DNA of 34,293 nucleotides from Ignavibacteriales bacterium. Its GTDB lineage: Bacteria > Bacteroidota > Ignavibacteria > UBA10030 > UBA8401. Position 1 is the first letter of the stretch, and each line of letters begins with the position of its first letter. The position numbers and the translations under genes were made by a program. Location: contig JAPLFO010000117.1 in assembly GCA_026390635.1 (NCBI GenBank), positions 1 to 34,293 of the forward strand. Direction: 5' to 3'. The notes under the pieces are model-generated. The model made no database searches. It had not been told where the DNA came from and saw nothing but the letters and a program-made list of their open reading frames with translations. Of this stretch, positions 18,333-33,765 are shown in pieces.

Positions 18333-18362
18333 GAGGTCATCGAGCGGAGCCGAGATGACCTC
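18333..18362. repeat. REP-like palindrome, copy 1
   Basis: Perfect 9-base arms GAGGTCATC (18333-18341) and GATGACCTC (18354-18362) with a 12-base loop, between the divergent yigZ and bshA. The inner 24 bases (18336-18359) recur at 33742-33765 on the opposite strand with one difference, so it is a dispersed element and not an operator specific to bshA. Confidence 0.6.
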
Positions 18363-27413: not shown

Positions 27414-27494
27414 AGACTTTCCAAGTTTTTACTTTTCAGACCTTTCAGGTCTTTAAGACTTGGGTACTTTTAGTAGGATAAACTTGGAAAGTCT
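27414..27494. repeat. Palindromic element at the 3' end of the transposase gene
   Basis: Perfect 15-base inverted arms, AGACTTTCCAAGT-TT (27414-27428) and its complement (27480-27494), enclose an inner palindrome AGACCT-TTC-AGGTCT (27438-27452). The right arm encodes part of the transposase C-terminus, and the stop codon sits just beside the inner palindrome. The same arm sequence occurs at 28140-28254 on the other side of the gene. Confidence 0.75.
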
Positions 27495-28118
27495 ACCAGT
27501 GGGGCCCTCCTCGGACGCATTCTCATCGATATCTACATTCGATGGAATATTCTTATGAAATTCGATAAAATCATTCTTGCCGCCGAACCATTGTAATAAT
27601 TCAAGTTTACTTATCTTCGTCGGCTGGTCTTTTACCAACGTATCATACGAACTCCATCGGTACAGACTTAAGTCATCGGTAAACTTATGATGAACAGGAT
27701 TGTTGTGTATATATAAAATCATTTTTGCAAAATAGGCATCGCTTCTAATTTCTCTTCGCCGAAAATTCTTCTGGAATAAGCTGCCGGAACGTTTTTCCTG
27801 CTTATTAATTGCTTTGGAATATGACATAAAGAGTTTCCGAAATTGCTCGCTGACGATAGTGGGTGGTTGGCGTTCCAAGCTTTTCTTTTTGACCTGGGAA
27901 TCACTTGGGAAGTCTTTGACCCTGACCAGCATATGAAAATGATTCGGCATCAAACAATAGGCAAAGGTATCAAGATAGGTGGAAAGGTAATAATCGTACT
28001 TTGACAAAAAGTACCGGTAGTTGTCGTCTTTGTAGAAAAGATTGCAGCTGTCATTACCGCGATTGTAAATGTGATAATATTTCCCCTGTTCGAGCGGCTG
28101 GAGGTTTTTCAGTGGCAT
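27453..28118 (-). CDS. REP-associated tyrosine transposase (Y1/HUH)
   Basis: A 221-residue Y1 HUH nuclease of the RAYT type, single-strand DNA transposase relatives that act on palindromic repeats. The N-terminus has YYHIYNRG, the metal-binding HUH is H60-F-H62 in CLMPNHFHMLV, the candidate nucleophile is Y100 in MSYSKAINKQ, and the family tail has SGSLFQKNFRRREI and YIHNNPV. AGGGG lies six bases before the ATG. The last 13 residues (RLSKFILLKVPKS) are encoded by the palindromic repeat itself, and similar palindromes flank the gene on both sides. The gene is intact. Confidence 0.93.
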   Translation of the reverse strand: MPLKNLQPLEQGKYYHIYNRGNDSCNLFYKDDNYRYFLSKYDYYLSTYLDTFAYCLMPNHFHMLVRVKDFPSDSQVKKKSLERQPPTIVSEQFRKLFMSYSKAINKQEKRSGSLFQKNFRRREIRSDAYFAKMILYIHNNPVHHKFTDDLSLYRWSSYDTLVKDQPTKISKLELLQWFGGKNDFIEFHKNIPSNVDIDENASEEGPTGRLSKFILLKVPKS

Positions 28119-28139
28119 GATTTCCCCTTGTTTATGATC

Positions 28140-28254
28140 GACTTTCCAAGTTTTCCTTTTAAGGTTCGGATCTTAGACTTTCCAAGTCTTGCTTTTGTAG
28201 ACTCATCAGATCCTCAAGACTTGAGCAGCCCGACTAGAACATACTTGGAAAGTC
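28140..28254. repeat. Palindromic element upstream of the transposase gene
   Basis: Outer arms GACTTTCCAAGT (28140-28151) and ACTTGGAAAGTC (28243-28254) match the arms of the element at 27414-27494. Inside are AGACTT-TCC-AAGTCT (28175-28189), CTCAAG-A-CTTGAG (28213-28225) and GGATCT/AGATCC (28168-28173, 28208-28213). The nested palindromes could fold into a branched cruciform, as expected for a substrate of an HUH transposase. It lies between the transposase start and the end of the SPFH gene. Confidence 0.75.
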
Positions 28255-28264
28255 TAATCCCCTT

Positions 28265-33606: not shown

Positions 33607-33741
33607 AACAGCCGTCCTCCTGATTGCCGGGTGAAGCGGACTTCCCGCTTTCCGTGGAGATCTCTCTGCAGTACTTTCTCCAAGCTGACTACTTCAACAT
33701 AGCTGCAACATTCTTTCTTTCCGAAGCGGAAGTTGGTATTG

Positions 33742-33765
33742 GTCATCTCGGCTGCGCTCGATGAC
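33742..33765 (+). repeat. REP-like palindrome, copy 2
   Basis: Reads GTCATCTCGGCT then GCGCTCGATGAC; it matches the complement of 18336-18359 at 23 of 24 positions. The arms GTCATC and GATGAC can pair. It sits in a 209-base gap between two genes, as REP-type elements do. Confidence 0.6.

Follow-up and report, generated by a model that had tools for sequence, protein, structure and literature searches.

The window, by which is meant the whole stretch of 34,293 nt analysed here (an Ignavibacteriales bacterium; assembly GCA_026390635.1, contig JAPLFO010000117.1), contains a HUH/Y1 transposase gene lying between two palindromic elements, and raises the question of whether these palindromes are the substrate of the enzyme that they bracket and, if so, to which kind of system the unit belongs. 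A preliminary description of the sequence regarded this layout as the one expected if the enzyme recognises the palindromes, and suggested that the two elements serve as two different end signals. The evidence presented below indicates, with a probability of roughly 85%, that the locus is a REPIN-RAYT unit (REPtron), in which a single-copy, chromosomal gene for a REP-associated Y1/HUH nuclease lies between copies of what is likely the substrate of the enzyme, pairs of short inverted palindromes (REPs). Judged from sequence comparisons, the specimen would work like such a unit and would descend from one, with the trait of repetition failing here. REPINs are among the commonest repeats of bacteria.

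Architecture of the locus

The features of the locus are collected in Table 1. The arm AGACTTTCCAAGT occurs exactly at both ends of both elements (27414, 27482(-), 28175, and 28243(-)), as had been described, and copies with one mismatch are located at 28139 and 27903(-). When up to two mismatches are allowed, the window contains 7 matches compared with 0.70 +/- 0.87 in shuffled sequences, none of which reached 7. The outer arm is itself a 15-nt palindrome of 6-3-6 architecture (AGACTT-TCC-AAGTYT, or its complement at the opposite end). The two elements are copies in direct orientation (81-82 nt, 72% identical), and identity is concentrated in the arms (28/30 positions versus 30/51 inner positions; Fisher p 0.0008), indicating that the arms were retained while the interior drifted. 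The left inner palindrome of the 3' element (AGACCT-TTC-AGGTCT) is perfect, but its partner at 27456-27470 has decayed (8/15 match), as has the inner palindrome of the right element, of which CTCAAGACTTGAG (28213-28225) remains. Rather than two different end signals, the elements are diverged direct copies, each internally symmetric.

Table 1. Features of the locus, with positions in the window. Element names follow the preferred reading and are putative.
Feature	Position	Strand	Remarks
3' REPIN	27414..27494		81 nt, symmetric 15-9-15-3-15-9-15; overlaps final tnpA codons and stop
Outer palindrome AGACTT-TCC-AAGTTT	27414..27428		3' element
Inner palindrome AGACCT-TTC-AGGTCT	27438..27452		6/6 paired; left inner palindrome of 3' element
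Outer palindrome AAACTTGGAAAGTCT	27480..27494		inverted partner in 3' element; minus strand encodes RLSKF
tnpA	27453..28118	-	HUH/Y1 REP-associated tyrosine transposase; intact ORF of 221 aa; stop TAA 27455-27453
Catalytic Tyr136	27711..27713	-	within YIHNNP; Y136 and H138 invariant (35 homologues)
Decayed REP pair AGACTTCCCAAGTGA ... AAGCTTGGAACGCCA	27868..27915		within tnpA, in frame; post-HUH linker, residues 68-84
HUH motif H60-F61-H62	27933..27941	-	coordinates via reading frame
Solo REP CGACTTTCCAAGTTT	28139..28153		about 20 nt before tnpA start codon
5' REPIN	28175..28255		81 nt; architecture and orientation as 3' REPIN, inner part decayed

The overlap between the 3' element and the transposase gene is more extensive than first described, when only the right arm was said to encode the last residues of the protein. 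Half of the element (27453-27494) lies inside the tnpA ORF, spanning its final 13-14 codons, and the TAA stop codon forms the central 3 nt of the element. The solo REP lies near the site of the upstream 33-nt pair of relatives (start at -39 to -48; see below). Folding as single-stranded DNA, proposed earlier as a check, gave structures better than those of shuffled sequences for all four strands of both elements (z -3.7 to -5.4). Single 15-nt hairpins are only weakly stable (-0.9 to -2.9 kcal/mol), compared with -13 to -16 kcal/mol for the stable long hairpin.

The transposase

The transposase had been described as intact, and its ORF is indeed uninterrupted (28118..27453, minus strand; 221 aa), with both the HUH and Y motifs that make up the Y1 HUH core of RAYT/TnpA-REP proteins. 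The protein matches the NCBIfam model of REP-associated tyrosine transposases (NF047646) with 59.7 bits (E 2.8e-16) against a curated cut-off of 80, a score that marks it as a divergent relative rather than an equivalog of the model; all 35 aligned homologues match the same model (35/35). Within the alignment of these 35 homologues, H60 and F61 are invariant and H62 is present in at least 90%. In a profile alignment, the YIHNNP motif corresponds to the YIYINPVKHG motif of Escherichia coli TnpA-REP. An AlphaFold model of the protein (pLDDT 86.5) has as its top PDB match 4er8, the structure of TnpA-REP with a REP hairpin (E 4.6e-8, TMt 0.72). Model confidence drops at residues 71-90 and 191-221, stretches that include both of the sites where palindromes are translated. 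The transposase is single-copy in its genome, and the GC content of the tnpA gene is 38-41%, versus about 50% in the surroundings.

Palindrome pairs at homologous loci

A scan of 40 homologous loci for inverted pairs of 15-nt 6-3-6 palindromes recovered 24 pairs in 6.7 kb of upstream sequence, 23 in 6.5 kb downstream, and 13 within the genes. The distant flanks (90.6 kb) yielded 3 pairs, and mononucleotide shuffles none. Pairs are therefore about 100x denser beside the gene than in the distant flanks; the scan criteria demand palindromes, so that the paired bases are no independent proof of folding, whereas the contrast with the distant flanks is independent. The gap between the two palindromes is 3 nt in 42/60 pairs, giving a total length of 33 nt. 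Upstream pairs with a 3-nt gap begin in most cases at positions -39 to -48 relative to the start codon; their downstream counterparts are located around the stop codon. The palindromic words differ by a mean of 1.7 mismatches between upstream and downstream elements of one locus versus 6.7 mismatches between loci. Distinct left and right ends, as first proposed, were rejected, and one REPIN on each side appears to be the arrangement, rather than the left end plus right end of an IS200/IS605-like element.

Word distance is correlated with protein distance (Mantel r 0.66, p 0.0002; kinship not otherwise removed). The loop triplet as well as the stem is conserved within each genome, suggesting that both are probably read by the enzyme. 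A gene flanked by inverted palindrome pairs that share one cognate word, a trait of REPIN-RAYT systems, is thus found here, and the expectation that the enzyme and its bracketing palindromes belong together gains support from the recurrence of the arrangement at homologous genes and from words that follow the protein. The tetranucleotide GT[AG]G was found directly 5' of the 15-nt palindromes at 0/120 feet of the homologous loci; once the first two letters of the palindrome are included, 6/120 feet fit. Its absence is in keeping with substitutions in the window's protein relative to 4er8 (F115 in place of W94, and Arg/Arg in place of the GTAG-contacting E100/H101), which are consistent with a lost reading of GTAG. 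A DNA similarity search with the elements in relatives gave no match.

Of the pairs located within genes, 12 of 13 lie at nt 185-258, directly after the HUH motif, and the decayed pair of the window occupies the same linker as those of these 12 homologues. In the window, 23/30 letters of this pair fit the REP word, a fit equalled by 2/2000 codon shuffles. The pair length of 33 nt is a multiple of 3, and most of the pairs in homologues are read through in frame (e.g., RLDKSQRLVKSS in L083). These in-frame copies amount to a natural archive of insertions into a linker that tolerates them.

Dispersal in relatives

Copies without a transposase, whose presence had been suggested as a test, were searched for in 198 relatives using a pattern that leaves the loops and centre free, together with a reversed-pattern control. 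The 33-nt pattern was present in 37/198 relatives, with up to 28 copies per genome, and no more than four genomes gave any match to the reversed control. In several relatives, the 33-nt pairs are dispersed away from the gene, and this dispersal of the cognate word lends further support to the pairing of enzyme and palindromes. One of these relatives is genome G004, which belongs to the same family and carries the closest homologue found there (transposase 48% identical). Among its 28 copies, 21/28 are exactly the word beside its own tnpA and 24/28 are within 2 mismatches, with 13 different centres; this word differs from the outer word of the window by one compensated stem pair (AGACTT-TCC-AAGTCT -> AGATTT-TCC-AAATCT). 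Dispersed copies in G061, G048, and G074 likewise match their own tnpA word or near variants. Among 27 copies in one genus (g58), the arms are almost identical, the centres vary, and the flanks are for the most part unrelated, indicating that the unit there is exactly 33 nt. When the flanks of five of these 33-mers were searched in five sister genomes, one syntenic gene pair lacked the 33-mer in a sister species, and another locus lacked it in two species, with flanks too diverged for the junction to be read. Few matches, all distant, were found in the search for carriage by phages or plasmids.

Carriage of the pattern is associated with the enzyme, being observed in 18/52 genomes with a close tnpA homologue versus 19/146 without one (p 0.0015, kinship ignored). 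The 19 genomes that carry the 33-mer pattern without a close homologue count against the REPIN-RAYT reading, as do the unspread window word, the lack of GT[AG]G at the feet, the NCBIfam score below the cut-off, the failure to find an exact empty site, and the weak stability of single hairpins.

The genome of the window

The genome-wide arm count proposed in the preliminary description gave exact copies of the arm at this locus and nowhere else in the genome. Looser matches elsewhere (2 mismatches, degenerate word) numbered 63 versus 95 for the reversed-pattern control, and no dispersed copies of the window word with 1 mismatch exceeded the control; these counts rest on pattern searches with known words in an assembly of 202 contigs, which may miss repeat copies. 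Palindromes repeated elsewhere in the host, a further trait of REPIN-RAYT systems, were found for G004, G061, G048, G074, and a second RAYT of the window's own genome, and not for the window word. Absence of the arm elsewhere had been named as one half of a refuting condition, the other half being relatives with the same region unchanged at the boundaries, and it shows only that the word has not spread here. Either the window unit has not spread or its copies have been lost, and the putative REPIN of the window, unspread beyond its gene, is a quiet or recently acquired unit. The second RAYT (G000, contig C86 6205-6919, locus L164) is broken by an assembly gap of N. Its word, AGGTGTCCGACATCT, differs from that of the window and stands upstream; a 63-nt pair lies inside the gene, and pairs of 80-98 nt are scattered elsewhere. 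A RAYT with dispersed REPINs in the same genome indicates that spreading of such units does take place in the lineage.

A comparison with relatives lacking the insertion was also proposed. The search gave neither a genome of the same genus nor an exact empty site. In the three genomes of the family that were examined, the SPFH-NfeD gene pair is kept with another gene as its downstream neighbour, and neither gmd nor tnpA is beside the SPFH gene. The low GC content and the differing neighbours in relatives fit a recent arrival of the window unit, without proving it.

Alternative explanations

A locus in which palindromes bracket a Y1 transposase gene could also be a minimal IS200/IS605-like insertion sequence, with the two elements as left and right ends and the whole unit mobile together with the gene. 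The low GC content, which suggests a foreign origin, and the SPFH genes without adjacent tnpA or gmd in the family genomes examined agree with such an origin, but the gene is present as a single copy in its genome, both sides carry the same symmetric REPIN in direct orientation instead of two different ends, and the palindrome pairs of relatives have spread without the gene. The assignment of 35/35 homologues to the NCBIfam REP transposase model, as well as a structure nearer to TnpA-REP than to IS608 or ISDra2, further argue against an insertion sequence of this type, which is considered very unlikely. A slightly better, though still poor, chance is given to a TIR-associated transposase (TIRYT/TIRtron), in which the gene is flanked by long terminal inverted repeats with double palindromes that are not REPs. 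Transposase genes with double palindromic TIRs on both sides and no GTAG have been described (Di Nocera et al. 2013, PMC3733652), but the GGGGWSAS consensus is missing from the window arms, the window elements are direct copies with internal symmetry, and what is repeated in relatives is the 33-nt pair. The distinction between a TIRYT and a REPIN-RAYT unit is partly one of naming.

The palindromes might instead be regulator sites or terminators for tnpA and its neighbours, kept for regulation and not for processing. The preferred distance of the upstream 3-nt-gap pairs from the start codon, the downstream pairs at the stop codon, and the stability of the long hairpin are what such a function would predict; in contrast, 12 homologues carry an in-frame pair within their coding region, several genomes contain dispersed copies of the same word, and the word changes together with the enzyme between genomes. 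Regulation as the reason for these palindromes is therefore highly improbable, and it could be an added role within a REPIN-RAYT unit.

Relation to known systems

Among described groups, the nearest known kind appears to be TnpA-REP subclass 2.6 (Quentin et al. 2018, PMC6006769; equivalent to Bertels group 5), a non-GTAG subclass of Bacteroidetes for which the main text of that paper gives only "atypical secondary structures" identified by hand. The window shares with this subclass, so far as it is described there, a Y1/HUH protein with the YIHNNP motif and an SS(Y) serine motif, top homologues in Bacteroidota, flanking palindromes without GT[AG]G, and relatives with copies elsewhere. In contrast to the subclass motifs given in that source (NH[LIV]H, WQ, and YIH[QN]NP), the window protein has NHFH and FQ, so that YIHNNP alone is exact (1/3), and the window word has no copies elsewhere. 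Structures that are merely "atypical" in the main text of the paper are here resolved into 15-nt 6-3-6 units paired 3 nt apart, although its motif table may already contain the 15-3-15 definition implicitly. According to the same source, subclass 2.4 also has in-frame palindromes in tnpA between the HUH and Y motifs (present in 12 homologues and decayed in the window) and a low copy number, but its REPs are long and GTRG-tagged or double-foot, whereas the units described here are short and lack GTRG.

The REPIN-RAYT systems of Pseudomonas fluorescens SBW25 (Bertels and Rainey 2011, PMC3116915) resemble the window in that two inverted REPs and a spacer form the unit (GI about 87 nt versus 81 nt), in the alternative of a long-hairpin or a two-hairpin fold, and in one REPIN family per RAYT. 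They differ in that GTGG/GTAG is lacking here, the minimal form in relatives is 33 nt, and the window word is unspread. E. coli TnpA-REP (PDB 4er8) is the best match in both structure and sequence among solved structures, with the Y motif aligned. Some TIRtrons (PMC3733652) have double palindromic flanks without GTAG, as here, but their TIRs are described in that source as flanking the gene and unrelated to REPs. A text search of papers with four of the words returned no paper on such repeats among the matches listed.

Proposed mechanism

The biochemistry of related TnpA-REP enzymes (PMC8266576; PMC6006769), of which the GTAG-using enzymes of groups 2 and 3 have been studied biochemically (PMC8266576), suggests how the unit might operate. 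Where a strand becomes exposed, a replication fork being one example, the 15-nt REPs would each fold into a hairpin with a stem of 4-6 bp and a 3-nt loop. TnpA would bind these hairpins, reading loop and stem, and Tyr136 would cut the single strand beside the hairpin foot, after which the REPIN could be moved, or copied and joined, to another single-stranded site. The fully folded pair, one long hairpin of 15 bp, would be an alternative and probably inactive fold; Bertels and Rainey (PMC3116915) proposed such an alternative fold for REPINs. Mobility of the unit is thus an expectation derived from its relatives.

A more specific and tentative proposal, which is rather doubtful at present, is that these loci represent a distinct Bacteroidota class of REPIN-RAYT, with an exact, frame-neutral 33-nt pair, a free 3-nt centre, and no GTAG guide, in which the palindrome's own feet (5' side AG or AA, 3' side CT or TT) would serve as both guide and cut site. 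Units of this class could insert into the disordered post-HUH linker and the C-terminal tail of their own gene with the frame left intact, and the copy in the 5' leader may allow self-control. It is a guess that feet of AG/CT stand in for the GTAG guide. The pattern provides a simple 15-3-15 definition and a search pattern with a near-empty control. The enzyme/word pairs available in many species are suited to tests of specificity with a unit short enough for synthesis, and words that follow the enzyme allow the residues that read stem or loop bases to be mapped.

Other repeats in the window and its relatives

Several repeats of other styles were observed in the course of the analysis. One homologous locus (L089) has a tandem array of GATGGCATC palindromes downstream of tnpA, unlike the single pairs of other homologues. 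At two loci from two species of one genus (L106 and L107), the RAYT genes are surrounded by long GTCAGACATCC...CGTCTGACA repeat arrays, a different repeat style. The matches to the reversed control (8 in G159, 3 in G182, and 1 each in G160 and G170) are possibly another palindrome family with the opposite letter order. In G102, where no tnpA homologue was found at E 0.001, the 33-mers AAACCTATAAGGTTT (loci L212-L220) lie within larger repeated blocks that share 100-460 bp of flank. The window itself contains a 24-nt palindrome of the type GTCATCTCGGCT-nn-GCTCGATGAC at 18336-18360 (-) and 33741-33765 (+). With up to 3 mismatches, this palindrome has 24 copies genome-wide, compared with 0 for the reversed control, and the compensated stem changes among its copies (ATC/GAT, ACC/GGT, and GTC/GAC) accompany what appears to be another REP-like family.
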